Source: Macrocystis pyrifera
Taxonomy: Eukaryota > Sar > Phaeophyceae > Laminariales > Laminariaceae
Direction: 5' to 3'
Length of the DNA stretch: 64,000 nucleotides
NCBI GenBank assembly: GCA_031763025.1
Contig: JASSKH010000017.1
Coordinates: 8,472,254-8,536,253 of the forward strand
Under the pieces are notes generated by a model that made no database searches, was not told the DNA's origin, and saw nothing but the letters and a program-made list of their open reading frames with translations. The position numbers were made by a program, and so were the translations under genes. Of this stretch, positions 659-62,100 are shown in pieces. Position 1 is the first letter of the stretch; each line of letters begins with the position of its first letter.

Positions 659-946
659 CCCCCTCCTCAACGTTGTTGAGCTTCTGTATCTTCGGGACTA
701 CCCCCTCCCTCGCTTCCCTCATTGCTACCGATCGCATTTCCCTCATCAAGCGTTTTCAACGACGCATGCTTTTAAATTTTATACCCCCCTCGAGAGAGAG
801 AGAGAGAGATGAGGAAAATGGACGAATGTGACAGGGAGGAGTTTGGTACACTGAATAGCAGCGAGAAAATGATCGCTATCCTAGGAGGTAGATGGTGGCC
901 ACAGGCGGCGAAACAGGAAGGGGATGATAAGACTAGCAAAATGTTC

Positions 947-1083
947 CTATGTAATACATGGAAACAAAGCAATGAGCGCCCAACTGTTGGAGGTGTCTCT
1001 ACCAGGAGTAGGAACGATGCTCCGTCTCGAAAGGGATGCGTGTTCAATGTTCAAATAACTAAGACACGCAACATATGAGTACG
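947..1083 (-). mobile_element. Dispersed element B
   Basis: A second repeat family, matched by 38719-38849 in the opposite orientation. In family orientation it starts with TGCGTACTCAT straight after a G run, much like element A, and then shares the segment with CACGCATCCCTTTCGAGAC. The match ends near 947, although the repeat may reach further left. Here the C run at 1084 follows directly. Confidence 0.65.
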
Positions 1084-1976: not shown

Positions 1977-3121
1977 CTGCCTTCACGGAGGGAGACAGTG
2001 GAGGTTGGCGTGTGGCAAGTTTGTGTTAATTTGTGGGACAGGGGTTGCAGCACGTCCACGTGACGTGACGGGGAGGATGCATCTGGACATAAAGCTGCCG
2101 GCGAACCTTTTCATCGGCGATGAAGGTGCGAAACGCTCACGCCCCCTCACGCGCTGGTATTTGTTTTTCTCGGCGCCTACATCCGCTTTTTTTTCTGGGC
2201 GTCCGCTTTTTTCTTGACCTCCAGATTTTTCGTCGGGGCCGTATTTGTTCGTTTAGGGGGCGGGGGGGGGGGGGTGTACTCAGTATCATGCATGGCCGTA
2301 GTCGTAAGGCCATAGACCCTCGTATTTCTACAATGCCGGGACGGAGCATATCGGGTTTCGCCGGCCAGACAGATATTGGTTGCACCAAGCGCGAAGCGCC
2401 GTAAGGTGCCCGGCTAGTCGCATGAAGGGTGAGCTGTATCCCACTTGGAACCGCTTCTGAGGCGGATTTTCTTGCACATGTAGGACAGCGTCAATGAATT
2501 CATTTATTTTCCGGCGTGGCCACTTCCAGAGACAAAATTGGATTGGCCATGTAACCGCCCAGTGGGTGCCCCCTTACCTATATACCTGGTACACACTACG
2601 TGATACGACCATCCCCCTTGTGCGGAGTGAAGGTTCTCCCCGCACAAGAATGGTCTAACTCGGCCGCCAGACGTAGTGATCGCCCAAAAACCAAAATAGT
2701 ACCCTGGTTGTCTAGCTCACACAGTGAGAGGCGTGTTTCAAAGCGTCGTCGCCAACCGACGCCAACCCAACATATATATACATGTAGGGGGGGGGGGGGG
2801 GGCACCATTATTTCGTGTTCGCGTCAGTAGACGGACAGACTGACGGGCGAGCGGGCCGTCGAGAAAAGCGACGATTTTGTTTTTTTGAAGCAACCTATCG
2901 TGATTTGTTTGGTATGAGCTTGAGTCGGGCGAAGCCACATAGGTACCGGTAAGTCTTGATGAACTCTGAAACGCCTTTGGTGTGACGGATCAAGCCTCGC
3001 GCCGAGAAGGCGAATGCGGCTCGGACTGTTTCGGAACTCCTTGAGCACTTGTTTTTGTTTTAGCGATGAGGGTGACGATAGTGAAAATGGCGATGACGAT
3101 GATAATGACAAATGGTGGTGA
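1977..3121 (+). CDS. Three phase-consistent exons of a protein with an acidic tail
   Basis: Exons are 1977-2125, 2891-2948 and 3064-3121. The first follows an acceptor ending ATGCAG and ends before a weak GTGCGA donor. The second lies between TTTTTTTGAAG and GTAAGT. The third follows TTGTTTTTGTTTTAG and ends in TGA. Split codons rejoin at both junctions (G+CA gives Ala, CG+C gives Arg), so the frame is continuous: GKFVLICGTG, DIKLPANLFIGDEA, TYRDLFGMSLSRAKPHRYR, then the acidic DEGDDSENGDDDDND and KWW at the C-terminus. A full copy of element A (2275-2786) occupies most of the first intron. The 5' end is not resolved; the exon at 1249-1447 is a candidate. I do not recognise the protein. An acidic tail suits a basic partner, but that is inference. 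Confidence 0.55.
2275..2786 (+). mobile_element. Dispersed element A, full length, inside an intron
   Basis: Forward copy running from TGTACTCAG, right after a run of 13 G, to AACATATATATACATGTA, right before a second G run of 17. It lies in the intron between the exons ending at 2125 and starting at 2891, so it should be removed by splicing. The copy at 45691-46202 is its partner. Confidence 0.88.
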
Positions 3122-5520: not shown

Positions 5521-5888
5521 CGTTCCTATGTTTTCCTCTTGTCCGCAATGGTAGTCTTACCTCTCGTGCTGTACGATCGTCTGGAGAATGCTGGGCGAAC
5601 AACAGCTGCTGCAGTTCTATAGTAGAGTGGATGGTGCTCCTCTGGGAAACAATAATCACCCGCGATGGACCCGTCTCGATATCCTAGTCCTTTGAGAAGG
5701 AATCCCTCGAGCTGCCCATGATCGCGCGGGCTTGGTTCGTGGTATCTTCGCGTTCCTCCGGTCCTTTCCGTGCATGGCCCACCCGCGACGCAAGATACGC
5801 CCCGGCAGCCTCCTCTCTACATCATCTACTGTATCATATCGCAGGTACCTTGTATAGATTCCCCCTCTCCCTTCCCCGGGGGTAGATC

Positions 5889-6262
5889 ATTTTTTGCAAG
5901 GTGAAGAACTTAACTCCGCACAAGGGGAATTATCGTATCGCGTAGTGTGTATATGGTAAGGCACCCTCGAGACAGTTACATGGTAAACCCATTGCGGTCT
6001 CTGGATGTTGCCACACCAGAAAACAAATCGATGCATTCGAAGCTGTCAACCACATGCAAGAAAACCCGCCTTGTAAAGAGATTCTTAGTAGGATACAGCT
6101 CACCCTTCATGCGACTCGCCGAACACCTCACGGCACTTCGTGCTTGGTGCAAGCAATGTCTGCCTGGTCGGTGAAAACCCGACGTGCTCCGTCCCGGCAT
6201 TGTAGGGATGCGAGGGTCTATGGTCATACGACTACGGCCGTGCATCACATGAGTACGCACAC
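5889..6262 (-). mobile_element. Dispersed element A, truncated
   Basis: Reversed copy that lacks the far third of the element: it starts at the hairpin region (AACTCCGCACAAGG) and keeps the fixed end, ATGAGTACG, followed by a C run. The family's TATATATA end and flanking homopolymer are missing on the left. Confidence 0.8.
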
Positions 6263-11320: not shown

Positions 11321-11832
11321 TATATATATATATATAGGTTGGGTTGGCGTGGGTTGGCGACGACGCTGTAAAACACGCCTCTCACTGCGTGAGCTAGACA
11401 GCCAGGGTACCGTTTATTTTTGGCGGATACCACGGCTGGCGGTCGAGTTATTAATATATTATTTTTGTGCGGGGAGAACCTTTACTCCGCACAAGGGGGT
11501 GATGATCATATCACGAAGTGTGTATATGGTGAGGCACCCACGAGGCAGTTACATAGTAAATCCATTACTGCCTCTGGAAGTGGCCACACCAGAAATTAAA
11601 TCAACTCATTAATGCTGTCAACCATATGCAAGAATACCATAAATTAAATCAATTCAGTAGTGTTGTCATTCATAATCCGCCTCTAAAGTGGTTCATAGTA
11701 GGATGCAGTTCACCTTTCATGCGACTCGCCCAACACCTTGCCGCGCTTCGCGCTTGGTGCAAGCAATGTCTGCCTGGTCGGTGAAAACCCGACGTCCTCC
11801 GTTCTGGCATTGTAGGGATGCGAGGGACTATG
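11321..11832 (-). mobile_element. Dispersed element A, fixed end missing
   Basis: Reversed copy starting at TATATATATATATATA after a run of 15 C and running to GATGCGAGGGACTATG. It then departs from the family, so the last 40 or so bases at the fixed end have been lost. The loss is shared by copy 2. Confidence 0.85.
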
Positions 11833-13368: not shown

Positions 13369-13461
13369 GCTGCTCTTTGTGTTCCTTTAAAAAAAGAAGG
13401 AACGCGAGGACACGGCGAAAAAAAATAGAGAGCGGCCAGGGGCCGGAGGGGGGGGGGGGGG

Positions 13462-13967
13462 TGTACTCATTATCATGCATGGCCGTGGTCGTATGACCAT
13501 AGACCCTCGCATCCCTACAATGCCGGGACGGAGCGCGTCGGGTTTTCACCGACCAGGCAGACATAGCTTGCACCAAGCGCGAAGCGTTGGGCGAGTCGCA
13601 TGAAGAGTGAGCTGCATCCTATTAAGAACCGCTATAGAGACAGATTTTCTTGCATATGGATGACAGCGTCAATGAATTGATTTAATTTCTGGTGTGGCCA
13701 CTTCCGGAGACAGCAATGAGTTTACTATGTAACTGCCTCGTGGGTGCCTCACCATATACACACTACGTGATACGATCATCCCCCTTTGTGCGGAGTAAAG
13801 ATTCTCTCCGCACAAAAATGATCTAACTTGACCGCCAGCCGTGGTAACCGCCAAAAAAAAAAAAAACGGTACCCTGGCAGTCTATAGCTCACGCAGTGAG
13901 AGGCGTGTTTTACAGCGTCGTCGCCAACCGACGCCAACCCAACCTATATATACCAGGTATATAAATA
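13462..13967 (+). mobile_element. Dispersed element A, full length
   Basis: Forward copy from TGTACTCATTATCATGCATG, after a run of 13 G, to TATATATACCAGGTATATAAATA, before a run of 6 G. It lies between mini-gene units 2 and 3. In copy 2 only the first 188 bases remain (56862-57049). Confidence 0.9.
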
Positions 13968-14165
13968 GGGGGGGGTAGGTTTTGTGGGGGGGTTTCGGTG
14001 GGTTAATGTTTTAGACTGTGACCTTGTTGTTTAGCAGCGGCAAGAGAGGGGGGGACGATGGGGAGAGAGGGGTTACGCTCAGGGGAGAGGGGATAACTCC
14101 GACAAATTTATTCTCTAAGGAAAACGAAAAAAAATGTGCGAAGATCGCGCGATTGCTACGGCATT

Positions 14166-16071: not shown

Positions 16072-19000
16072 TTATGCCTGGTATCGTTCAGTACGTACAG
16101 TAGTCTTGGCGGCTGCAATGTAGCGAAACATATGTACCCGTACGAAACCGCACCTTGTCAAGGATGCGAGGCCAGGCGTTACGACGCAAGTGGTGGTCTT
16201 CCTAGCCTTGGCAGCGGTCGCCGGCACTGCTTGGCGCGGGGTGTTGATGCCGATGGCCGACAAAGGCGACCGCGTGGGCGGCGGCGGCGGCGGCGGAAGC
16301 GGCGGCCCTGATGGAAAGACTTCGCTTCTCAGCCGAAGAAGTGGCACACGGCGAAGAGAACATCGCGCCTCCGACCCCAACCCCTATCCAAGGGGCGCGC
16401 CTTCCGGTGGGGCATCCCGATACCCTCCCACCGTTTTCGTCATTGCATGGCACTGGCGTGGGGGCGGCCGTGGCGGTGGGTGTGGCGGGGATTGCAGGGG
16501 CGACGGTGGCGGTGGGGATGGCGGGGACCTCAGGAGCGACGGTGGCGGTGATGCTGATGGGAGCTGCAGGGGCGGCGATGGCGGTCACGGGAGCGGAGGG
16601 AGCGATGGAGGCGGCGGGGATGGCGGCGATCGGGGCGGCGGGTTTGGTGGTGGCGGGAGGGGAGGCGGCGATCGGGGCGGCGGAGATGGTGATGGCGGGG
16701 GTGGAGGGGGCGATCGGGGCGGCGGGTTTGGTGGTGGCGGCGGGGGGGAGGCGGCGATCGGGGCGGCGAGGATGGTGATGGCGGGGGTGGAGGGGGCGAT
16801 CGGGGCGGTGGGTTTGGTGGTGGCAGGGGGGGAGGCGGCGATCGGGGCGGCGGGGATGGTGATGGCGGGGGTGGAGGGGCGATCGGGGCGGCGGGTTTGT
16901 TGGTGGCGGGGGGGCAGGCGGCGATCGGGGCGGCGGGGGGGTGGTGATGGCGGGGGTGGAGGGGGCGATCGGGGCGGCGGGTTTGTTGGTGGCGGGGGGG
17001 AGAGGCGGCGATCGGGGCGGCGGGGATGGTCATGGCGGGGGTGGAGGGGGCGATCGGGGCGGCGGGTTTGGTGATGGCGGGGGGGGGGGGAGGCGGCGAT
17101 CGGGGCGGCGGGGATGGTCATGGCGGGGGTAGAGGGGGCGATGGGAGCGACGGCGCCGGCGGCGCTGATGACGGCTGGCATGGGGGACATGGGCTTGGTG
17201 GTTGCGGCGCACGAAGCCAGGATGTCCAGGGCAGTCAGCGTAGTCGAAGGCGAGACGGTGGTGGTGACGGGGGAGGTGGTGGCGGCCTGTGGCGGCTTCA
17301 CGGTGGTGGCTGTCGTCGTCTTCGTGGTCGTCGTCGCTGTCGGCAACGGCAGAGGCGTGGCTGTGGCCGCCAACGACACGAGGACGGCGAATGCTGATGG
17401 GCTCGATGCAGGCGTGGTTGGTCCCTGCTCCCCGGCATCACTCGAGATGTTGAGCACCGACGGAGGAGTCATAGTGCCGCTCACCAAGGTCCGCGAGGCA
17501 CCTGGGGTGGAGAATGTCGAGGCGGCGGTAGAAGACACGGCAGCGGCAATGCCCGAGGCACGGGTGCAGAGCGTGTTGGCGCTCAAGGGCGTCGCGGGAG
17601 ACGCGTCTAGCCCGCCGGCACGAGGGCTTGCATAGCCGGAATCGATGCAGTCGCTGCGGTCGCGGTCGCTGTTGCCGTTTTCGTATCCGTTGCTGCTGGT
17701 GTAGGACTCGTCGGTACTTTCCTCTAGAGAAGCTCCACCGGTCTCCTGCAGCTTACGAGCAAGGGCGTCTCGCTCGGCGACCGCGGCCACCAGGATACAC
17801 TGCATGTCGTTGGTCTGTTCTTTGAGAGCTCGATTGTCCGATTGGAGCCTCTTGTTGCGGGCACCGGCGTTCTGCAGCCTGCGAGCAAGGGCGTCTTTCT
17901 CTTCGACGGCAGCCACCAGGGTCGATTGCAGGTCTTGGACTTGTTCCTGAATGACGAGCTTCTCCGACTGGAGGGTTTGGTTGGTGGCAACCAGCGAGGT
18001 CTTGTCGGCCGCAAGCTGAACGGCGACTGTGTGAACGGCGCTAGCGGCTTGCTTCCAGCTGTTGACTACCTGGGCCTGTTGGGTGCGCAAGCGGCCAGGC
18101 GGGAAGAAAAAGTAATTGGGGACGAGTAGATATCAACAGGGAGTGGGAGGGCAGAAATTTTCGCGTGCACTATCTATTAAATAGACTACGACTATACCAC
18201 ATACTGGTCAAATTATTCCCGGTAGTACATACCATAGGAGCCTGACAACACAAACAGAAAACAGCCGAGTACCTGGCACCTGATGTTAATAGTACCGCTG
18301 TAGTCTATATACCAGATACATTACGTATATTGTATATTTACTTTATTTTATCATGTATACCTGGCACTTGCTTACAGTACGCGACATCAGTTAATAATCT
18401 CCTATTTTGGATAAGGCTCGCGGCTTATATTATCGTTATTGTAATTGTTTCCTGGTAATATTTTTGCCATCCACCACTGCTGTGCATTTAAGCATACGCT
18501 GCTTACATTGTAATGTCAACGTCGAACATAGGAGGCTACCAGGGGCCAGTTAATTTATATCTAGAATGGCGTTCCTTGCTGAGCATGAATGCTTCCGAAG
18601 CTGTAAATTCTTAAAATTCTAAAACTCTCCGCCTAAAATTCTTGACTCCCGAGTTCTTGACTGACCAGCGCACATACACTGAAACAATACAGTAGGTGCA
18701 TCAAGGGCGAAACACCCCCCTTCACATCATAGAGAGTACATACAGGATGTCAGGTACCCAGTAAGAAACCGAAATACTGCCCCACTTGGGCTACATTGAG
18801 ATTTCTTATTGGGTAGAGGGTGCCTTCTACGGTATTTGCAGCCTCAAGTACAACAGCTCCCCCAGTTTCTTATTCTCCTGTAAATACTTACCTCAGTCCC
18901 GCCTTTCACATTTTCCTCTAAATATCATCTCAGTCCTGCCTTTCTTCATTACTGCTGTGCTGGTTTTATCAGGAGGTGCTCGCATATATACTATTAAATA

Positions 19001-21679: not shown

Positions 21680-21930
21680 AAAGCGTGCAACGCGGGTATG
21701 AGCCATAGACTCAAGTGGTTCGGTACGGCCTCAATACTCTACTGAACAGTCCGGTAAGGTTCGTTACCAACTCGATACTGGTACCCGATACTTCGGCAAG
21801 TTCGGTACGACTTCAGTACTGTATCAACACTTCGATGAGTTCAGTACGACCTCAGTAATACTGGTACCCGAGACTTCTGTAAGTTCGGTACGCCCACCTA
21901 AAGTACCCCGGGTACCGGTATATACACCCT
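21680..21930 (-). repeat. Degenerate satellite based on GGTACCGGTA
   Basis: Irregular repeats of about 45 bp with GGTACC, TTCGGTAAGTTCGGTACG and CTTCGGCAAG elements, in the opposite orientation to the larger array at 34000-34460. Confidence 0.65.
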
Positions 21931-22068
21931 ACCGAACACACCTTTGCAATAATATGCCTGGTACCTGCTGTATCATACCAGTATCTCAGAGGTGGCTATG
22001 AACATTCCAAGAAAAATGCGTGGTTTTGTGGTGCTTGTTCGCTAAGCAGTACGAGTGATGTATTACTA

Positions 22069-28100: not shown

Positions 28101-29006
28101 TCTCAAAACGAACGAAGAAGTAGAAACTTACCCGGTCTACAAACGTTTTCGAGCATATGGGGCCTTCAAAGGGCATTTGAAAGTCGTCAGTTTGTTTGCA
28201 CCTACATACAATCGCGGATTTTTCTGTCCGCTTCATTCGCCTTTGGTTTTCTTGCTTGTGAGCGAACGTGCGAGAGTAGTGGGCGGCGGAGCAAAGCGCC
28301 TTGTACGAAGCTCTCTCGTCTTTCTATTTTATAAAAAACTAAAAAAGCACGTCAGCTGTGTCTTCAATCGTCTTTTTATTTTATTAAAAACTGTTTTTGT
28401 CGATCGATGTCTGTCGAGGACTCGGAATCTCGCCGCTTCGAACCAAAGATCGGCCTGAGTTTTTCTCAAGCCGATCTTGGCCCAACATCGGCCCCAGATT
28501 TGCTTTTTTCGGACTTTTCCAACTGTTGGATTTTTTTTGTTTTTTAAAGTGCCCATAGAAAGCATGTTCTAAATTTTCTTGGCGGGTATCTTTGGAATTC
28601 AAACTTTTTATTGATACTCCGCGTTCCCATTGGCATACGTCTTATGCAGTCCAAACATGAAAAATCCAACCGGATTTTTTTTTCGATTCGAGAATCCCAT
28701 GACCCAAGTCGTCGGATTTTGGGCCAAAATCCGACGACTTGGGTCGTTAGATTTTCAAATCGAAAAATGGCATGCTCTCTAAATTCGAGATGTTATCCAC
28801 GACAGCAAACAGCTGCAGAACGATCGATGAGTTGGATGGTGACACAGCTGTATAGCCACGTTGCTTCGCGCCCGACGCGCGGGCGGCGCGTCCCTCCGTG
28901 GCCAGATTACAGTCGGCTGGCGCGGGCTCGGGTCTAGAGACCAAGAGAAGCGCCCTCGGCACGCACCTCTCCGTGGAAACGTACTCGTAGACTACACTGC
29001 TGTACA

Positions 29007-32426: not shown

Positions 32427-32670
32427 CTCTTGAAGTGGCCACACCGGAAAAAAATCAATTCATTCGACGTTGTCATCCGTATGCAAGAAAGTCCGCCTCC
32501 CAAGCGATTCTTGATAGGTAGGATGCAGCTTACCCTTCATGCGACTCGCCGAACGCTTTACGGCGCTTCGCGCTTCATGCAAGCAATGTGTGCCTGGTCG
32601 GTGAAAACCCGAATTGCTTCGACCGAGAGGGTCTATGGTCGCACAACTATGACCATCCACGACATGGGTA
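32427..32670 (-). mobile_element. Dispersed element A, truncated
   Basis: Reversed copy that starts at the CTTGAAGTGGCCACACCGG segment, just after a short C run, and ends at the fixed end with GACATGGGTA followed by C8. It is more diverged than other copies. Confidence 0.75.
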
Positions 32671-32772
32671 CCCCCCCCCACCACCAACGCGTTCGACGCC
32701 GTTGACTCCCCGCCCCCCCCCCCATCCTCATCCATTCCCTCCATACACGTATCTCTTCGCTTGTCGGTATAG

Positions 32773-32992: not shown

Positions 32993-33160
32993 GGGGGGGG
33001 GGGGGGGGGGGGGGGGGGTGTACTCATTGTCATGCATGGCCGTAGTCGTATAACCATGACCATGGGGGGGAGGGGGGGGGGGGGGTGATCGAGAAAGAGA
33101 GGGGAGGACGAGAGAGGGGGAGAGTGGAAGGAGGGGGGGGGGGGGGGGGGGGTGTATTGG
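32993..33160 (+). repeat. Poly-G tracts with an element A fragment
   Basis: A run of 26 G (32993-33018), the first 45 bases of element A (33019-33063), a G-rich stretch, and a run of 20 G (33133-33152) followed by GTGTATTGGATATCATGC, which may be another element end. Confidence 0.8.
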
Positions 33161-33280
33161 ATATCATGCTTCGACTTCTGCATGATAATGACCTGTTGGG
33201 CGGGCAAGCGACTGCACCTGAAACGAAAACATTGGGAACAAGTAATTGAAAGAGAAGAGCGGAGGGGGGAGGGGGGGGGG

Positions 33281-33637
33281 GTACTCATTGTCATACATGG
33301 CCGTAGTCGTACGACCATATACCCTCGCATCCCTACAATGCCGGGACGGAGCGCGTCGGGTTTTCACCTACCAGGCAGACATTGCTTGCACTAAGCGCCG
33401 TGAGGTGTTGGGCAAGTCGCATGAAGGGTGAGCTGCATCCTACTAAGAACCGCTTTAGAGGCGGATTTTCTTGCATATGGATGACAGCATCAATAAATTG
33501 ATATAATTTCTGGTGTGGCCACTTCCAGAGACAGCAATGGGTTTACTATGTAACTGCCTCGTGGGTGCCTCACCATATACTCACTGCGTGATACGATCAA
33601 CTCCCTTGTGCGGAGTAAAGGTTCTCCGCACAAAAAT

Positions 33638-33639
<2 letters not shown>
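33281..33639 (+). mobile_element. Dispersed element A, truncated, ends in 42 G
   Basis: Forward copy with the fixed end (GTACTCATTGTCATACATGG) directly after a G run. It contains the family hairpin, TTGTGCGGAG at 33606-33615 pairing with CTCCGCACAA at 33624-33633. It stops just past the hairpin and runs straight into 42 G (33640-33681). Confidence 0.9.

Positions 33640-33681
<42 letters not shown>
33640..33681 (+). repeat. Poly-G tract, 42 bases
   Basis: Uninterrupted run of 42 G, followed by GTGCAATTCTGCGTGCGCTC, a sequence that recurs at 38284 beside a short G run. Confidence 0.9.
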
Positions 33682-33682
<1 letters not shown>

Positions 33683-33999
33683 GCAATTCTGCGTGCGCTC
33701 TATATCCCTATTCTATCTTTACTACATGCTGGTGACCTGTCTGTATTGTCAAGATCTCGATATCCAGAGCGTTCCAGCCACGCCTTGCCTCATGGGATGA
33801 TATACTGAGTGCTGGGTGACACAAACCAGCGGAACACCGGGTCACATGCCGCGCCGAGTCGAGGGCGTCTCGCATTTCCCTGTGTGCCACGAAGCCTAGA
33901 GTGCGAGAGAAGTAAATACTTCCGGAAAAAAGTCAATTCGGTACAAAGTAATTATCACTGCTGACAAAAATCTACAAGGGTGCAAGGGTAGGTTGGGTA

Positions 34000-34460
34000 G
34001 AGTATACCGGCACCCGGGGTATTTTGGTGGTCGTACCGAACTTACCGAAGTGTCGGGTACCGGTATTGAAGTCGTACCGCACTTACCGAAGTGTCGGGTA
34101 CCGGTATCGAGCCCGTGTTGAACAAATATCCATACCCCCGGCATTGTTGTCAAAGGGATACCGGTGCCCGGGGTATATTTCGGGTGGTCGTACCGAACTT
34201 ACCTATAAGTGTAGGGTACCGGTGTCGACGTCTTACCGAACATACGAAAGTGTCGAGTACAGCTAACGATTCTATACCGAACTTACCGGAGTCGGGTACT
34301 GATATCGAGTTCGTACCGAACCTTACCGAAGTGCCGGGTACCGGTATCGAGGCTGTACCGAACTAAATAAAGTGTCAGGGACTGGGTTCGAGGCCGTACC
34401 GAACCTTACTGAAGTGTCGGGCGCCGGTATCGAGGCCCTACGGAACATAGTATACCGGTA
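34000..34460 (+). repeat. Satellite array based on GGTACCGGTA
   Basis: About nine degenerate units of roughly 45 bp, each with a form of GTACCGAACTTACCGAAGTG and TCGGGTACCGGTATCGAG. Unit length and sequence vary. Inverted relatives lie at 21680-21930 and 35020-35260. Confidence 0.8.
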
Positions 34461-34655: not shown

Positions 34656-35630
34656 GCCGGAGCGATTGCGGGCATTCGTCTACCCGACACCACTATTAAT
34701 AGCGCACTTGTTGCACCGGGGCTACCAAGCTATCCACCGCGGGCGAGCCTGTTGGTGGTGACCCATGAATATGATCCTTAATATTATTAGGGTGGTCTCC
34801 CCTGCTGGTTGCGGTCGCTCATGGTGGCTTACCGAACAGTCTACACATACGAGAAAAGCCATTTTTTGGTCTAAAGCGGGCGCGTGCGGAGCACAAGATG
34901 TTGCACTGAATGTTCGCTGTGGGGGGGGGGGTGAGGGGGCTAACCTACCCCGCCTCAAGTCCGTGCGATGACGTCAGGGGGCTTTCAGTGTTGTCGGTAT
35001 CGCATGACTGAACACCTATACCCCTGGGTACCGGCATCCTCACGCCTCTCGACCGCAATGCCGGGGGGTATGCGTATTTGTTCGGTACGGCTTCGATACG
35101 GGTACCCCTCACTTCGGCAGGTACGGGACAAGCCTATTTTACCGGTACCCGACACTTCGGTAAGTTCGGTACTCCCACCCGCATATACCTTGAATACCCT
35201 CGACCACAGTATCAGACGTACGGGTAACTGGTTCGGTACAGTCCCGATACCGGGGTTGTCGGTATATGGTGCTGTGCTATCGACACACTGTACTCTGACG
35301 TCATCACACGGACTTTAGGCGGGGTGGGTTGGCACCCCCGCCCCCCCACAACAAACAAGCAACGCACAATTGCGGTCTACACGCGCCTGCTTTAGACAAA
35401 AAAAAAAAAGGATACTCGTCCAATGTAGAGTGTATGGTAAATCATGAGCGACATCGGCAGCAGGGGGAGACCACCCGGACAACAAATCACAATCGTCGTC
35501 ATGGGTCTCCAACAGGCTCGCCCGGGGCGGATAGCTCCACAGCCCCGGTACAACAAACGCACTAGCCAGCGAAGGGTCCGTGGTGTCCGACAGACGCGCG
35601 TGCCCGCAGTCACCCCGGCTGTTCTTCAAA
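34656..35630. repeat. Large inverted repeat with 320-bp arms
   Basis: The arm 34656-34976 aligns with the reverse complement of 35295-35630 with many differences. Each arm encodes a related frame pointing inward from its outer end: AIAGIRLPDTTINSALVAPG and SYPPRASLL on the plus strand in the left arm, and RLSDTTDPSLASAFVVPGL and SYPPRASLL on the minus strand in the right arm. TGACGTCA, a perfect palindrome, sits at the inner edge of both arms (near 34969 and 35296). The spacer holds GGTACC satellite. The protein is not recognised. Confidence 0.75.
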
Positions 35631-38718: not shown

Positions 38719-38849
38719 TGCGTACTCATTTGTTGCTTGCCTCGTCATTTGACTATTGACCACGCATCCCTTTCGAGACTGAGCACCGTTCCTACTCCTA
38801 ATAGAGGCACCTCCAACATTTGGGCGCTCATCACATATATTACATAGGC
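38719..38849 (+). mobile_element. Dispersed element B
   Basis: Forward copy starting TGCGTACTCATTTGTTGCTT right after a G run, matching 947-1083 in reverse. It ends at TATTACATAGG, a few bases before an element A copy begins. Confidence 0.7.
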
Positions 38850-38856
38850 GTGGGGG

Positions 38857-39089
38857 TGTACTCATTATCATGCATGGCCGTAGTCGTATGACCATAGACC
38901 CTCGCATCCCTACAATGCCGGGACGGAGCACGTCGGGTTTTCACCGACCAGGCAGACATTGCTTGCACCAAGAGCGAAGCGCCGTGAGGTGTTGGGTGAG
39001 TCGTATGAAGGGTGAGCTGCATCCTACTAAGAACCGCTTCTGAGGCGGATTTTCTTGCATATGGATGACAGCGTCAATTAATTGATATA
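38857..39089 (+). mobile_element. Dispersed element A, truncated, ends in 33 G
   Basis: Forward copy from TGTACTCATTATCATGCATG to CAATTAATTGATATA, then directly into 33 G (39090-39122). The truncation point differs from those at 33639 and 57049. Confidence 0.9.

Positions 39090-39122
<33 letters not shown>
39090..39122 (+). repeat. Poly-G tract, 33 bases
   Basis: Uninterrupted run between a truncated element A and a second, more diverged element A fragment. Confidence 0.9.
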
Positions 39123-39123
<1 letters not shown>

Positions 39124-39207
39124 ATAATCATGTCATGCATGGCCGTGGTCACAATCGTAGATCCTCGCATCCATACAACGCCGGGACGGAGCACGTCCGG
39201 TTTTTTG
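39123..39207 (+). mobile_element. Dispersed element A, short diverged fragment
   Basis: Begins TATAATCATGTCATGCATGG after the 33-G run and follows the family to GAGCACGTCCGGTTTT, where it stops near a GTGGGTGGGG stretch. Confidence 0.75.
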
Positions 39208-43545: not shown

Positions 43546-44062
43546 CTTATACATTACGTATAGGTTGGGTTGGTGCCGGTTGATAGCGACACTGCAAAAC
43601 ATGTCGCTCACTACGTGAGCTAGATAACCAGGGTATCGTTTTTTGTTTGTTTGTTTTTTTGGTGGTCGGTCACAGGTGGGCTTTCGAGCTATAGATTATT
43701 TGTGCGGGCTGGAGAACCTTCACTCCGCACATGGGGAATGACCGCATCACTTAGTGTTTGCGGTAAGGCATCCATGAGGCAGTTACATAGGATCCCCATT
43801 GCTGTCTCTGGAAGTGGCCGCATCGAAAAATAAATCAACACATTGAAGCTGTCATCTATACGCAAGCCCGCCTCACAAGCGGTTATTAGTAGGATGCAGC
43901 TCGCCCTTCATGCGACTCGCTGAACACCTCACGGCGCTTCGCATAACTTGGTGTACGCAATTTCTGCCTCGATGGCGAAAACCCGACCTGCTCCGTGCCG
44001 GCATTGTAGGGATGCGAGGATATATGGTCATACGACTGCGGCCATGCATGATATCGAGTACA
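43546..44062 (-). mobile_element. Dispersed element A (copy-2 partner of 144-658)
   Basis: Reversed copy between a C run and CCCCC, near identical to 144-658. Confidence 0.85.
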
Positions 44063-44350
44063 CCCCCTCCTCAACGTTGTTGAGCTTCTGTATCTTCGGG
44101 ACTACCCCCTCCCTCGCTTCCCTCATTGCTACCGATCGCATTTCCCTCATCAAGCGTTTTCAACGACGCATGGTTTTAAATTTTATACCCCCCCCCCCCC
44201 CTCGAGAGAGAGATGAGGAAAATGGACGAATGTTACAGGGAGGAGTTTGGTACACTGAATAGCAGTGAGAAAATGATCGCTATCCTAGGAGGTAGATGGT
44301 GGCCACAGGCGGCGAAACAGGAAGGGGATGATAAGACTAGCAAAATGTTC

Positions 44351-44488
44351 CTATGTAATACATGGAAACAAAGCAATGAGCGCCCAACTGTTGGGGGTGT
44401 CTCTACCAGGAGTAGGAACGATGCTCCGTCTCGAAAGGGATGCGTGTTCAATGTTCAAATAACTAAGACACGCAACATATGAGTACGC
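44351..44488 (-). mobile_element. Dispersed element B (copy-2 partner of 947-1083)
   Basis: Same boundaries as in copy 1; ends ATGAGTACG against a run of C. Confidence 0.65.
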
Positions 44489-45389: not shown

Positions 45390-46532
45390 CTGCCTTCACG
45401 GAGGGAGACATTGGAGGTTGGCGTGTGGCAAGTTTGTGTTAATTTGTGGGACAGGGGTTGCAGCACGTCCACGTGACGTGACGGGGAGGATGCATCTGGA
45501 CATAAAGCTGCCGGCGAACCTTTTCATCGGCGATGAAGGTGCGAAACGCTCATGCCCCCTCACGCGCTGGTATTTGTTTTTCTCGGCGCCTACATCCGCT
45601 TTTTTTTCTGGGCGTCCGCTTTTTTCTTGACCTCCAGATTTTTCGTCGGGGCCGTATTTGTTCGTTTAGGGGGCGGGGGGGGGGGGGGGGTGTACTCAGT
45701 ATCATGCATGGCCGTAGTCGTAAGGCCATAGACCCTCGTGTTTCTACAATGCCGGGACGGAGCATATCGGGTTTCGCCGGCCAGACAGATATTGGTTGCA
45801 CCAAGCGCGAAGCGCCGTAAGGTGCCCGGCTAGTCGCATGAAGGGTGAGCTGTATCCCACTTGGAACCGCTTCTGAGGCGGATTTTCTTGCACATGTAGG
45901 ACAGCGTCAATGAATTCATTTATTTTCCGGCGTGGCCACTTCCAGAGACAAAATTGGATTGGCCATGTAACCGCCCAGTGGGTGCCCCCTTACCTATATA
46001 CCTGGTACACACTACGTGATACGACCATCCCCCTTGTGCGGAGTGAAGGTTCTCCCCGCACAAGAATGGTCTAACTCGGCCGCCAGCCGTAGTGATCGCC
46101 CAAAAACCAAAATAGTACCCTGGTTGTCTAGCTCACACAGTGAGAGGCGTGTTTCAAAGCGTCGTCGCCAACCGACGTCAACCCAACATATATATACATG
46201 TAGGGGGGGGGGGCACCATTATTTCGTGTTCGCGTCAGTAGACGGACAGACTGACGGGCGAGCGGGCCGTCGAGAAAAGCGACGATTTTTTTTTTGTGAA
46301 GCAACCTATCGTGATTTGTTTGGTATGAGCTTGAGTCGGGCGAAGCCACATAGGTACCGGTAAGTCTTGATGAACTCTGAAACGCCTTTGGTGTGACGGA
46401 TCAAGCCTCGCGCCGAGAAGGCGAATGCGGCTCGGACTGTTTCGGAACTCCTTGAGCGCTTGTTTTTGTTTTAGCGATGAGGGTGACGATAGTGAAAATG
46501 GCGATGACGATGATAATGACAACTGGTGGTGA
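45390..46532 (+). CDS. Three exons of the acidic-tail protein, copy 2
   Basis: Exons 45390-45538, 46302-46359 and 46475-46532 match 1977-3121 in length and phase. The splice sites are kept (TTTTTTTTGTGAAG, GTAAGT, TTGTTTTAG). The tail differs by one residue (DND then N instead of K before WW). Element A at 45691-46202 again fills the first intron. Confidence 0.55.
45691..46202 (+). mobile_element. Dispersed element A (copy-2 partner of 2275-2786)
   Basis: Full-length forward copy with G runs of different length from copy 1 on both sides. Confidence 0.88.
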
Positions 46533-47452: not shown

Positions 47453-49330
47453 GTGAGGGGTCAAGAAATGAGAAGGGGTGGGGAGGTAAAGAGCGCGATA
47501 CCCCTTTTTTCGTTTCGTTTTCATGTTTCGTCCGGGTGTTACAACAAAGGCATTGTGAACGCGGGTGGGCGGGACGTGGCGGAACGGCGGAGGCCGCTTC
47601 GCGTGAAGAGAATACAGCCACCTGAAAATATGAGCACGTATATATCATCATAGAGCCTTTATTTAGAAGAGCTACCTCGCCTTATTGTAGTACTACATTG
47701 TACGATAGCTTCATACAGCCCCGCTTGCGTCCACGGTGAATTACGTTGCTGCTATAGGTATGCTGACTCTGGCTCAGTCTGCATCAGTCTAGCCCAGCTT
47801 GGCAGGCGCTCGATCCCCCGGTCTGGCTGCAGTCGAAAACGTGCACGTAGTCTTACGCCTGCGCACGCCCCGGTCTGACGCACGCGGTGGCACACGGCGG
47901 CAGTCACGATATAGACTTTTGACAACACTCGCTTCCATTGAAGCGCTGTGTATGATACAGCAGTCAAGCAACATTTAACGAAGCGTGGACCGGCGAAGAT
48001 CACTTTGTAATAGTTAATTTCCGCCAAAAAACGCGCACGGCCCACCGTGTTGAAAACTATCGATACCGTAGGTAGGTCGGAAGGGCCTGTGGACCAGCAC
48101 CGGTACGTAAAAATCAAGTGGGTGGGGCCAGGTATAACTCATCTAATAAACCGTGCTGTGCCTCTCTCGCCCGGTGACATATTTGATACTGGTACGCATG
48201 TAGTTTCGATTGGTCGACGGCGGCGGGAAGAAAAGTGCTAAGGGAGCAGCCTCGATGGTGCTTGCCGCGTGTTTCCGTATTCCGATATTCATATTCCCCC
48301 TTCCCTGTGATTTAGACGCAACAGTAGAATGGGGTTTCCGACCACCGCTGCCACCCTGATATTGATCGATTTTCGTGTTTGGTATGTTCGCTTATTTTCC
48401 CAAGCGTTTGAGGCTAAGCGGGGGGGGGGGGGGGGGGGGGGTGATATGCCGACCAAACAATGCTGCTATTGTGCATGTCAGTGAAGGTCAATATGGAAGC
48501 CGCGGTCGAAAAATGTTCGAGGAGCAGTCGCGGAACATGCAGGGCGCTAACAATCGAAAGCTTTCGAGACCGCACTTGTTGGCTTTGCGCTGTTTTGTGT
48601 GCCTTTTTTTGCGCATGGGTTACGAACGCTGTTTCAAGCGTGCGTCACCCTCCCCGCCCCCCTTTTTGACCCGCGTTTTTGTCCCCGGTTTTGGTCGGCC
48701 GGTGTCCTCAGCACCACCGCCATTGTCGCCAGCCTCGGCCTGACGGTGTACAAAGTCGCCACCAGGACAGAGCTATCGGGCGGCGAAGAGGATTGGACCG
48801 CTATTAGCTATATGAAGGACGGGCGCTCGTTCGGCCTTCCGTCGAGAAGGCAAAATTATCTAGGCTCCATCTCGCGCCATGTTAGGGTTCGCTCGTTTTT
48901 GTCATGCTGTTGATCTTGTTGTGGGCGATTTCCAATGGTATTACTCTAGGGCGTGATGCTTGACGTTCCTATGTTTTCCTCTTGTCCGCAATGGTAGTCT
49001 TACCCCTCGTGCTGTACGATCGTCTGGAGAATGCTGGGCGAACAACAGCTGCTGCAGTTCTATAGTAGAGTGGATGGTGCTTCTCTGGGAAACAATAATC
49101 ACCCGCGATGGACCCGTCTCGATATCCTAGTCCTTTGAGAAGGAATCCCTCGAGCTGCCCATGATCGCGCGGGCTTGGTTCGTGGTATCTTCGCGTTCCT
49201 GCGGTCCTTTCCGTGCATGGCCCACCCGCGACGCAAGATACGCCCCGGCAGCCTCCTCTGTACATCATCTACTGTATCATATCGCAGGTACCTTGTATAG
49301 ATTCCCCCTCTCCCTTCCCCGGGGGTAGAT

Positions 49331-49704
49331 CATTTTTTGCAAGGTGAAGAACTTAACTCCGCACAAGGGGAATTATCGTATCGCGTAGTGTGTATATGGT
49401 AAGGCACCCTCGAGGCAGTTACATGGTAAACCCATTGCGGTCTCTGGATGTTGCCACACCAGAAAACAAATCGATGCATTCGAAGCTGCCAACCACATGC
49501 AAGAAAACCCGCCTTGTAAAGAGATTCTTAGTAGGATACAGCTCACCCTTCATGCGACTCGCCGAACACCTCACGGCACTTCGTGCTTGGTGCAAGCAAT
49601 GTCTGCCTGGTCGGTGAAAACCCGACGTGCTCCGTCCCGGCATTGTAGGGATGCGAGGGTTTAAGGTTATACGACTACGGCCGTGCATCACATGAGTACG
49701 CACA
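49331..49704 (-). mobile_element. Dispersed element A (copy-2 partner of 5889-6262)
   Basis: Same truncation on the left; the C run at the fixed end is shorter than in copy 1. Confidence 0.8.
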
Positions 49705-54750: not shown

Positions 54751-55261
54751 TATATATATATATAGGTTGGGTTGGCGTCGGTTGGCGACGACGCTGTAAA
54801 ACACGCCTCTCACTGCGTGAGCTAGACAGCCAGGGTACCGTTTATTTTTGGCGGATACCACGGCTGGCGGTCGAGTTCTTAATATATTCTTTCTGTGCGG
54901 GGAGAACCTTTACTCCGCACAAGGGGGTGATGATCATATCACGTAGTGTGTATATGGTGAGGCACCCACGAGGCAGTTACATAGTAAATCCATTACTGCC
55001 TCTGGAAGTGGCCACACCAGAAATTAAATCAACTCATTAATGCTGTCAACCATATGCAAGAATACCATAAATTAAATCAATTCAGTAATGTTGTCATTCA
55101 TAATCCGCCTCTAAAGTGGTTCATAGTAGGATGCAGTTCACCTTTCATGCGACTCGCCCAACACCTTGCCGCGCTTCGCGCTTGGTGCAAGCAATGTCTG
55201 CCTGGTCGGTGAAAACCCGACGTCCTCCGTTCTGGCATTGTAGGGATGCGAGGGACTATGA
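54751..55261 (-). mobile_element. Dispersed element A (copy-2 partner of 11321-11832)
   Basis: Same loss of the fixed end as in copy 1; starts at a TA run after C14. Confidence 0.85.
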
Positions 55262-56861: not shown

Positions 56862-57049
56862 TGTACTCATTATCATGCATGGCCGTGGTCGTATGACCAT
56901 AGACCCTCGCATCCCTACAATGCCGGGACGGAGCGCGTCGGGTTTTCACCGACCAGGCAGACATTGCTTGCACCCAGCGCGAAGCGTTGGGCGAGTCGCA
57001 TGAAGGGTGAGCTGCATCCTACTAAGAACCGCTTTAGAGGCGGATTTTC
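56862..57049 (+). mobile_element. Dispersed element A, truncated in copy 2 only
   Basis: Follows the full element at 13462-13967 for 188 bases, to GAGGCGGATTTTC, then meets GGGGG and unrelated sequence. The remaining element and adjoining bases up to about 14008 of copy 1 are absent. Confidence 0.9.
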
Positions 57050-57444
57050 GGGGGAAGGTAGAACAGTTTTGGTTTTTTTTCTGTGAATTTGTTGCTCAGC
57101 AGCGGCAAGAGAGAGGGGGGACGAGGGGGTAGAGAGGATACGGTCAGGGGGGGGGGATAACCCCGACAATTTTTTTCTCTAAGGAAAACGAAAAAAAAAA
57201 ACGCGCGAAGATCGCGCGATCGCTACGGCACTTTACTCCATAAGAAACGTAACACAAAGATGGACGCAACGTAAGAACCACCTCTCGGACGGACGGCACA
57301 CTATTACCTCCTTTTGAGACAAGGTAATATCACCACTATTGGATTCAAACAGCGTATGCGGTAATATGACCACCGCACGTGCCGAACAATGCAACAACTC
57401 AATCGAGGCAATACGATGCCACCGCGCCGAGAAGAAACGCTTAC

Positions 57445-59132: not shown

Positions 59133-62100
59133 TTATGCCTGGTATCGTTCAGTACGTACAGTAGTCTTGGCGGCTGCAATGTAGCGAAACATATGTACCC
59201 GTACGAAACCGCACCTTGTCAAGGATGCGAGGCCAGGCGTTACAACGCAAGTGGTGGTCTTCCTAGCCTTGGCAGCGGTCGCCGGCACTGCTTGGCGCGG
59301 GGTGTTGATGCCGATGGCCGACAAAGGCGACCGCGTGGCGGCGGCGGCGGCGGCGGAAGCGGCGGCCCTGATGGAAAGACTTCGCTTCTCAGCCGAAGAA
59401 GTGGCACACGGCGAAGAGAACATCGCGCCTCCGACCCCAACCCCTATCCAAGGGGCGCGCCTTCCGGTGGGGCATCCCGATACCCTCCCACCGTTTTCGT
59501 CATTGCATGGCACTGGCGTGGGGGCGGCCGTGGCGGTGGGTGTGGCGGGGATTGCAGGGGCGACGGTGGCGGTGGGGATGGCGGGGACCTCAGGAGCGAC
59601 GGTGGCGGTGATGCTGATGGGAGCTGCAGGGGCGGCGATGGCGGTCACGGGAGCGGAGGGAGCGATGGAGGCGGCGGGGATGGCGGCGATCGGGGCGGCG
59701 GGTTTGGTGGTGGCGGGAGGGGAGGCGGCGATCGGGGCGGCGGAGATGGTGATGGCGGGGGTGGAGGGGGCGATCGGGGCGGCGGGTTTGGTGGTGGCGG
59801 GCGGGGAGGCGGCGATCGGGGCGGCGAGGATGGTGATGGCGGGGGTGGAGGGGGCGATCGGGGCGGTGGGTTTGGTGGTGGCAGGGGGGGAGGCGGCGAT
59901 CGGGGCGGCGGGGATGGTGATGGCGGGGGTGGAGGGGGCGATCGGGGCGGCGGGTTTGTTGGTGGCGGGGGGGCAGGCGGCGATCGGGGCGGCGGGGGTG
60001 GTGATGGCGGGGGTGGAGGGGGCGATCGGGGCGGCGGGTTTGTTGGTGGCGGGGGGAGAGGCGGCGATCGGGGCGGCGGGGATGGTCATGGCGGGGGTGG
60101 AGGGGCGATCGGGGCGGCGGGTTTGGTGATGGGGGGGGGGGAGGCGGCGATCGGGGCGGCGGGGATGGTCATGGCGGGGGTAGAGGGGGCGATGGGAGCG
60201 ACGGCGCCGGCGGCGCTGATGACGGCTGGCATGGGGGACATGGGCTTGGTGGTTGCGGCGCACGAAGCCAGGATGTCCAGGGCAGTCAGCGTAGTGGAAG
60301 GCGAGACGGTGGTGGTGACGGGGGAGGTGGTGGCGGCCTGTGGCGGCTTCACGGTGGTGGCTGTCGTCGTCTTCGTGGTCGTCGTCGCTGTCGGCAACGG
60401 CAGAGGCGTGGCTGTGGCCGCCAACGACACGAGGACGGCGAATGCTGATGGGCTCGATGCAGGCGTGGTTGGTCCCTGCTCCCCGGCATCACTCGAGATG
60501 TTGAGCACCGACGGAGGAGTCATAGTGCCGCTCACCAAGGTCCGCGAGGCACCTGGGGTGGAGAATGTCGAGGCGGCGGTAGAAGACACGGCAGCGGCAA
60601 TGCCCGAGGCACGGGTGCAGAGCGTGTTGGCGCTCAAGGGCGTCGCGGGAGACGCGTCTAGCCCGCCGGCACGAGGGCTTGCATAGCCGGAATCGATGCA
60701 GTCGCTGCGGTCGCGGTCGCTGTTGCTGTTTTCGTATCCGTTGCTGCTGGTGTAGGACTCGTCGGTACTTTCCTCTAGAGAAGCTCCACCGGTCTCCTGC
60801 AGCTTACGAGCAAGGGCGTCTCGCTCGGCGACCGCGGCCACCAGGATACACTGCATGTCGTTGGTCTGTTCTTTGAGAGCTCGATTGTCCGATTGGAGCC
60901 TCTTGTTGCGGGCACCGGCGTTCTGCAGCCTGCGAGCAAGGGCGTCTTTCTCTTCGACGGCAGCCACCAGGGTCGATTGCAGGTCTTGGACTTGTTCCTG
61001 AATGACGAGCTTCTCCGACTGGAGGGTTTGGTTGGTGGCAACCAGCGAGGTCTTGTCGGCCGCAAGCTGAACGGCGACTGTGTGAACGGCGCTAGCGGCT
61101 TGCTTCCAGCTGTTGACTACCTGGGCCTGTTGGGTGCGCAAGCGGCCAGGCGGGAAGAAAAAGTAATTGGGGACGAGTAGATATCAACAGGGAGTGGGAG
61201 GGCAGAAATTTTCGCGTGCACTATCTATTAAATAGACTACGACTATACCACATACTGGTCAAATTATTCCCGGTAGTACATACCATAGGAGCCTGACAAC
61301 ACAAACAGAAAACAGCCGAGTACCTGGCACCTGATGTTAATAGTACCGCTGTAGTCTATATACCAGATACATTACGTATATTGTATATTTACTTTATTTT
61401 ATCATGTATACCTGGCACTTGCTTACAGTACGCGACATCAGTTAATAATCTCCTATTTTGGATAAGGCTCGCGGCTTATATTATCGTTATTGTAATTGTT
61501 TCCTGGTAATATTTTTGCCATCCACCACTGCTGTGCATTTAAGAATACGCTGCTTACATTGTAATGTCAACGTCGAACATAGGAGGCTACCAGGGGCCAG
61601 GTAATTTATATCTAGAATGGCGTTCCTTGCTGAGCATGAATGCTTCCGAAGCTGTAAATTCTTAAAATTCTAAAACTCTCCGCCTAAAATTCTTGACTCC
61701 CGAGTTCTTGACTGACCAGCGCACATACATTGAAACAATACAGTAGGTGCATCAAGGGCGAAACACCCCCCTTCACATCATAGAGAGTACGTGCAGGATG
61801 CCAGGTACCCAGTAAGAAACCGAACTGCTGCCCCACTTGGGCTACATTGAGATTTCTTATTGGGTAGAGGGTGCCTTCTACGGTATTTACAGCCTCAAGT
61901 ACAACAACTCCCAGGTTTCTTATTCTCCTGTAAATACTCATCTCAGTCCTGCCTTTCACATTTTCCTCTAAATATCATCTCAGTCCTGCCTTTCTTCATT
62001 ACTGCTGTGCTGGTTTTATCAGGAGGTGCTCGCATATATACTATTAAATACCAGTTGCAGCAGCCTAGTTGCTGTAAACTAGTTGTACTCGTACCTTATA

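Follow-up and report, generated by a model that had tools for sequence, protein, structure and literature searches.

A dispersed non-coding repeat of Macrocystis pyrifera with G runs at both junctions and a 3' end shared with a LINE

What kind of repeat keeps one end constant, stops at varying points on the other side and meets a run of G's at both? The question is posed by a copy at 33281–33639 of the window, that is, of the whole 64-kb stretch of DNA analysed here (8472254–8536253 of its contig, in a genome of 537 Mb on 223 contigs). A run of 11 G's (33271–33281) lies at its fixed end and a run of 42 (33640–33681) adjoins the shortened one. A 98% identical paralogue in the neighbouring tandem duplicate (L002; L numbers denote retrieved loci) has 29 G's instead of 42. 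Strands are given below in RNA sense, in which this copy is on the minus strand.

BLAST searches of the window with three copies showed that the repeat, here called Element A, is a dispersed family with a full length of ~513–530 bp. Full copies are found at 2276–2802 (minus strand, flanked by G13 and G16), 13463–13975 (minus, flanked by G14 and G8) and 657–132 (plus, with C12 on the RNA 5' side). They run from TGTACTCAT to ...CCAACCCAACC(TA)n, with G's flanking both sides. Given this family length, the copy at 33281–33639 (~360 bp) is itself shortened; it covers ~368 of the 513 consensus positions and stops at AAAAATGA against the G42 run. A reading of it as a complete element with a terminal hairpin was rejected, since the full copies place the hairpin internally. 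At the fixed end, the letters GTACTC are present in 43 of 50 A copies and replaced by a variant in seven. In the RNA sense of the minus strand, GTACTCAT becomes the 3' end of the RNA (ATGAGTAC), and the variable side is its 5' end. A 32-nt piece of A had no exact counterpart in the viral contig and genome contig collections searched.

The window comprises most of a ~43.4-kb tandem segmental duplication. Its inner junction, at 33169/33170, directly follows a G20 run and cuts a further A start of which the first 17 nt are seen (33153–33169, minus strand); the junction region (33165–33170 of the window) was noted together with L027:2918 and L065:3196. The second duplicate carries paralogues of the A copies at 132–657 (43548–44061, plus), 2276–2802 (45692–46213, minus), 5883–6256 (49326–49699, plus) and 11329–11832 (54757–55260, plus). 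An insertion of ~946 bp (L064:7415–8361) is found in one duplicate only and has a clean empty site at 28392 of the window; a similar sequence was seen by eye downstream of L066, and the insertion is possibly a recently mobile element. The window also contains a GC-rich tandem repeat with units of 36–42 bp and open reading frames several hundred codons long on both strands (16461–17153 and 59521–60204), and an array of 41-bp units (33980–34450) with related stretches near 21720–21950 and 35020–35180.

Ten A copies in the window lie outside the second duplicate. The preliminary description had given all ten the same (T)GTACTCAT end, which is true of nine; in the copy at 11832–11329 (plus strand), the GTACTC end is without its first 35 positions and is not bordered by a G run. 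The different internal stops that it had reported were found again, at 33061, 33639, 39089, 32427 and 5883. Six of the ten lack the far end only, one the GTACTC end only, and three are full. Besides the copy under study, the shortened ones are 33020–33061 (minus, 43 positions, with a G26 run at 32993–33018 on the RNA 3' side), 32427–32671 (plus, 257 positions, diverged to 79% identity with the consensus), 5883–6256 (plus, 372 positions), and two head-to-tail copies at 38858–39089 (minus, 232 positions) and 39125–39204 (minus, 84 positions) that are separated by a run of 33 G's (39090–39122). Such a constant 3' end with variable 5' truncation is a feature of LINE-type retroposons.

Among the loci L003–L030, we counted 13 copies without the far end only, one without the GTACTC end only (the second copy of L005) and four without both, in a set (L002–L030) that was retrieved with a 361-bp query and mostly holds the two ends of that query by selection. 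L023 was omitted from these counts, its two pieces being one copy split by another insertion. An automated tally of 41 to 2 was set aside, as its secondary copies include many LINE ends matched by the A consensus. Truncation is from one side in the window, as six copies to one, with the exception named and with one short copy that arose by deletion, as discussed below.

The G runs were examined in 50 A copies that retain the fixed end (10 from the window, the one at 56863 included, and 40 from the loci; recent duplicates were dropped). In agreement with the earlier statement that most junctions adjoin a homopolymer of G, 47 of the 50 copies have a run of at least five G's no more than 25 nt from the fixed end, and 41 have one no more than 25 nt from the far end, against a background of 4.5% for 25-nt stretches of the window. 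The far end shows such a run in 25 of 27 full and 16 of 23 short copies. Runs of at least five C's, the control, have a background of 3.9% and were found at none of the fixed ends and at one of the far ends. In successive 20-nt steps away from the element, the share of copies with at least five G's is 84, 26, 16, 6 and 14% on the fixed side and 76, 32, 22, 18 and 16% on the far side; the enrichment therefore peaks at the junctions and stays above background out to 100 nt.

Does the genome encode an enzyme that could mobilise such a sequence? In the flanks of several A copies we noticed a second family with the same terminal GTACTCAT, and a 67-nt piece of it led to loci where it continues into a LINE, of which it forms the end. 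The preliminary description had proposed to look for a LINE with a common 3' end, and one is thus present. A and the LINE share their last 67–75 nt at 72–76% identity, including a hairpin UGGUC-NNNN-GACUA whose loop differs between the two; in 86 copies, no hairpin pair had changed on both sides. LINE loci carry a CPCG...H...EC stretch, and one copy contains RVT_1 above the cut-off (E=6e-9) and a weak match to the R2 protein 9nl2 (E=5e-5). In the search for the partner reverse transcriptase, the best 150 of 4,386 loose candidates were scored and all 150 matched.

A well-preserved LINE copy on contig C211 has an open frame of 1,137 aa. In 633 residues of this frame, Exo_endo_phos was detected above the cut-off (E=2.6e-7), and Exo_endo_phos_2 (1.5e-5) and the start of RVT_1 (1.1e-5) below theirs. 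An APE-type endonuclease precedes the reverse transcriptase in one frame (P0001), which is a feature of RTE and RTE-X LINEs. The 3' end of the C211 copy reads ...CAACAAATGAGTAC followed by C's, 16 in the match shown (GAGTAC-C16); it was assigned to this copy by position, with 852 unread bases between the RT match and the end. In L092, and likewise in L068 and L071, the C-terminal frame reaches a TGA inside ATGAGTAC, so the partner LINE is almost without a 3' UTR. A very short 3' UTR is again characteristic of RTE and RTE-X LINEs. An autonomous partner with reverse transcriptase and endonuclease, as expected for a LINE-type retroposon, thus exists in the same genome. That this LINE moves A in trans, and that A depends on it, is suggested by the shared end.

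Two ends of the LINE lie inside the window, at 803–1082 (plus, followed by C10 at 1084–1093; paralogue in the second duplicate at 44207–44486, plus) and at 38722–38846 (minus), 11 bp from the A copy at 38858 and in the same orientation. Thirty other RVT_1 loci, drawn from the best 150 of 7,470 candidates, were rejected as partner: 27 of them match the partner RT at only 22–27% identity and thus belong to another LINE. The GAGTAC-C end was absent from these 30 loci, which span 3.8 kb each and possibly fall short of their 3' ends. We also observed that independent LINE copies halt at the same nucleotide before a G run, namely L068 and L074 at ~205–211, and L066, L070, L072, L073 and others at position 66; the stop at 66 is partly a product of the query, unlike that of the L068/L074 pair. 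These shared stops may reflect preferred stopping points or short active subfamilies.

If the G runs are target sequence duplicated upon insertion, direct repeats should flank the copies. The preliminary description had proposed such duplications as a check, and they are clear at L007, L004 and L084 and only statistically visible overall. The clean repeats are CGATGCCGGGGGGGG in L007, TTCTGAAGGAGGG in L004 and ACCAAAAAGGCGG/ACCAAAAAGTCGG in L084, a 5'-truncated LINE copy whose repeats run into G's and lie 2 nt from the truncation. Shorter or less perfect repeats were picked by eye in L024, L019, L028 and L021 (a truncated A copy); in L021 and L028 the script put other matches ahead of them. 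Most flanks consist of G only, which makes single duplications unreadable there. In RNA sense, the clear repeats start with a C run, that is, the primer strand ends in G's.

Before the counts of repeats and G runs, the second window duplicate was dropped (except 56863 for A), as were cross matches of low identity and all copies that lack the fixed end or lie too close to the edge of a locus. For A, the loci L001, L002, L009, L010, L017, L020 and L061–L065 were also dropped; the same rule by name was applied to the LINE (set B), with L062, L063 and L065 in place of L061–L065 and with L002 not on the list of names. Twenty-seven of the 38 LINE copies in these statistics come from L066–L097, which were found with the 67-nt query. 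Since the last G of this query came from a G run, it favours LINE copies shortened just after nt 66, and the right-hand G figure of the B set is partly built in.

Ten of 88 copies reach a repeat score of at least 14, against 3.9 expected from permuted pairs (p 0.0036), at a median score of 8.4 versus 8.0 in the permutations. For about six of the ten the high score comes from flanking family sequence (L006 twice, L018, L019:1403, L023 and L026), and for L078 it comes from a distant match; the clean remainder is L004, L007 and L084. We then restricted the comparison to the 41 copies in whose flanks no family sequence was detected, which removes 47 copies, L004, L007 and L084 among them. The mean score of the 41 is still elevated (p 0.0012). 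A score of 10 or more is seen in eleven of them, where 4.85 would be expected, and a score of 14 or more in none (0.4 expected). The excess at 10 is largely made up of G runs that include one or two letters other than G; one copy, L026, retains family letters. It is what a short duplication within a G run would be expected to leave, as a property of the set and not as proof for any single site.

The readable duplications also delimit what the element itself contributes. By eye, the tail of the A or LINE copies is ACCT in L019 and L021 and ACCG in L028; it is AGCCC in L007, GCCCCT in L084 and ~13 C's in L004. In these few separable copies, the element's own tail is thus a short RCC(C)n with ~2 to ~13 C's, and the junctional C (G) tracts seem to derive mostly from the target, which is duplicated on insertion. 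The earlier idea of a C tail in place of the usual A tail holds for the end of the element, which is C-ended, and apparently not for most of the tract. In L007 and L024, the duplication is separated from the RNA 5' end by eleven extra letters, all G except for one T in L024, which could reflect transcripts starting in a C run, or slippage. A 17-letter filler in L019 (2027–2043), between the RNA 5' end of A and the likely duplication, resembles internal A sequence and looks like a template switch during insertion.

Copies of A and the LINE are frequently neighbours, and close neighbours point the same way. At gaps of up to 200 bp, all 35 pairs, in 25 loci, have the same orientation, and this includes all 27 pairs at gaps of up to 50 bp. 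At longer gaps opposite orientations also occur: with limits of 500, 1,000 and 5,000 bp, the pairs in agreement number 36 of 39, 39 of 45 and 41 of 49. (L065 was retained in these counts, and L001, L002, L009, L010, L017, L020, L062 and L063 were left out.) Left-hand neighbours often end at the G run beside the next copy, as in L019, L028, L078 and L079, and L099/L093 show a chain of A, LINE and A. These one-way arrays fit a strand-bound target that is copied by each insertion, later copies presumably entering beside earlier ones.

Could the arrays instead have arisen by tandem duplication or unequal exchange, without repeated insertion? The ~43.4-kb duplication does break 17 nt into an A copy, beside G20, so such events occur here. 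But 20 of the 35 close pairs join an A copy to a LINE copy, always in one orientation, and since they join two different families, tandem duplication is no explanation for them. Of the alternatives considered, we find this the least probable.

In the main rival explanation, A is a DNA transposon or is Helitron-like; it would enter G runs at full length, and its copies would be shortened later by one-sided deletions at the G tracts. Worms without the DOG-1/FANCJ helicase are a precedent, since their long G tracts provoke one-sided deletions of adjoining sequence. The window itself holds a case of this kind: the copy at 56863–57049 (minus strand) ends at position 197 against GGGGG, and because it is the duplicate of the full copy at 13463–13975, it must have been shortened after insertion. 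Comparison of 13650–14015 with 57050–57081 shows a net loss of 335 bp from the A copy, up to the flanking G run; beyond it, 50–65 bp are unusually diverged, as if after error-prone repair. G-tract lengths also differ between the two duplicates. Some short A copies may therefore be deletions at G tracts rather than truncated insertions. However, this deletion is the only indel above 30 bp between duplicates that are 97.9% identical, the LINE has the same 3' end and C-rich end, which would be unexpected for a DNA transposon, and the direct repeat of L084 lies right next to a truncation. In the consensus, terminal inverted repeats are absent by eye (TGTACTCATTATC against the reverse complement of the other end, TATATTATATACC), and TGTACTCAT and TATATTATA do not read as inverted repeats of each other. 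Helitrons are recognised by 5'-TC, a 3' hairpin with CTRR, insertion in AT and a Rep/helicase partner; the ends of A do not fit this by reading, and its flanks are G runs. We consider a G-tract-targeting DNA element with later deletions to be quite unlikely.

It is also conceivable that the element makes the G runs itself, through a long C tail and non-templated addition of G's, and that the target is no G tract at all. The extra letters past the duplication in L007 and L024 would suit this, as would the fixed end of L004, which has 13 G's that are missing from the right-hand repeat. Yet the duplications that are readable by their non-G letters include G's on both sides (L007, L084, L004), the element's own tail in L019, L021 and L028 appears by eye to be no more than ACCT, ACCT and ACCG, and several insertions sit at G runs that end other copies (L019, L028, L078, L079). 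This origin of the runs appears even less probable than a DNA element, though not as improbable as arrays formed by duplication.

Target-primed retroposition by the LINE machinery is consistent with these data, and the reading of the preliminary description, a 3'-constant, 5'-truncated sequence with an oligo-C end on the other strand, was borne out. How does the pair compare with known systems? L1 and Alu combine a homopolymer tail with 5' truncation and duplication of the target, and an APE-type endonuclease exposes their homopolymer primer. A and its LINE would resemble them in all of these, with the difference that C/G takes the place of A/T. In part, the L1/Alu features are also given in PMC3747384. 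In the terms of that source, the ~70 nt of 3' sequence that A shares with the LINE make this a 'stringent' pair, whereas Alu and L1 share only poly(A). UnaL2 and other stringent LINE/SINE pairs have the 3' end in common, often including a stem-loop, and carry short tail repeats (PMC3747384), and the present pair is similar in its common 3' end with stem-loop and its short tail. It differs in that the tail units listed there are TGTAA, TAA and A, unlike the C's here, and in that no Pol III head was found in A.

A is short, non-coding and has a 3' end in common with a LINE, as is typical of SINEs. Neither a Pol III promoter nor a tRNA, 5S or 7SL head was found in it, the best matches to the box patterns having 2–4 mismatches in 9–11 fixed positions. 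We therefore do not file A as a SINE and call it SINE-like only. ARAGORN detected no tRNA in the 64-kb window, and there was no Rfam match in the whole window at the gathering threshold or in a full copy (13440–13990) at E<=5.

The preliminary description knew no named family with this arrangement. This no longer stands for the pairing as such, because a SINE-like/LINE pair is on record in a brown alga: the parts of PMC12477816 consulted describe RTEX-N1_Ec32 of Ectocarpus, a non-autonomous element of ~600 bp with more than 6,000 copies, whose 3' end is conserved with the autonomous RTE-X LINEs RTEX-1 and RTEX-2_Ec32, whose 5' part is of unknown origin, and whose genome contains LINEs that are frequently 5'-truncated. 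By these descriptions, A is alike in size class, non-autonomy and LINE-shared 3' end, and may be a relative of RTEX-N1_Ec32. The same parts of that account make no mention of a C tail, a G-tract target or arrays. In S. japonica, RTEX-1 and other LINEs are reported to be recent insertions (PMC4421812); the portion of that paper used here does not mention C tails, G targets or one-way arrays. Among LINEs that target microsatellites, Togen, with (TG)n, and some HERO families are named in PMC4640811, in the part of it that we draw on, with target choice mostly tied to a restriction-like endonuclease. The partner LINE would be similar in having a simple-repeat target and would differ in its APE-type endonuclease and in the G homopolymer as target, which that part does not mention. 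As for G-tract targeting, in the titles and abstract beginnings of the open-licence literature searched we found no description of a C-tailed or G-targeting retrotransposon.

The anatomy of A, its one-sided loss in the window, the G's on either side, the few clear direct repeats, a LINE that has the same 3' end together with endonuclease and reverse transcriptase, and the one-way neighbours are best explained by target-primed reverse transcription at G tracts, in which the LINE protein copies C-ended RNA: its own in cis and that of A in trans. From the sequences at hand we consider this very probable. A would then be a non-autonomous retroposon, mobilised in trans by a LINE that resides in the same genome and has an APE endonuclease. 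The A RNA would be the minus strand of the original orientation and end in ...UGGUC-NNNN-GACUA...AUGAGUAC-RCC(C)n. The LINE protein would recognise the last ~70 nt common to LINE and A and nick the G strand, probably at or near the 3' end of a G run, and the resulting G-ended 3'-OH would prime on the C-ended RNA. An early stop of reverse transcription would leave the 3' end constant and the 5' end variable, and repair would duplicate the target, so that full and truncated copies alike would have a G run at both junctions. With a fixed priming strand and a G run that is doubled at each insertion, new copies would enter beside earlier ones in the same orientation, giving head-to-tail arrays.

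LINE tails and targets are usually regarded as A/T-rich or as specific gene and repeat sites. We regard the chances as evenly balanced that the present pair departs from this in full, with an APE-type endonuclease specific for G homopolymers, C/G pairing in place of A/T, a pair of elements that makes its own targets and strand-locked arrays and seeds G tracts genome-wide, and an RNA signal within the last codons of the LINE. As the stop of the LINE lies four bases before the C-rich end, one stretch would serve both as protein code and as RNA recognition signal. If this is true, the combination of G-homopolymer target and C-ended RNA would represent a new form of target-primed reverse transcription, and it would provide both a natural assay for G-tract nicking and an endonuclease of unusual target choice. 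It would also account for the G runs and the one-way repeat clusters in this genome.
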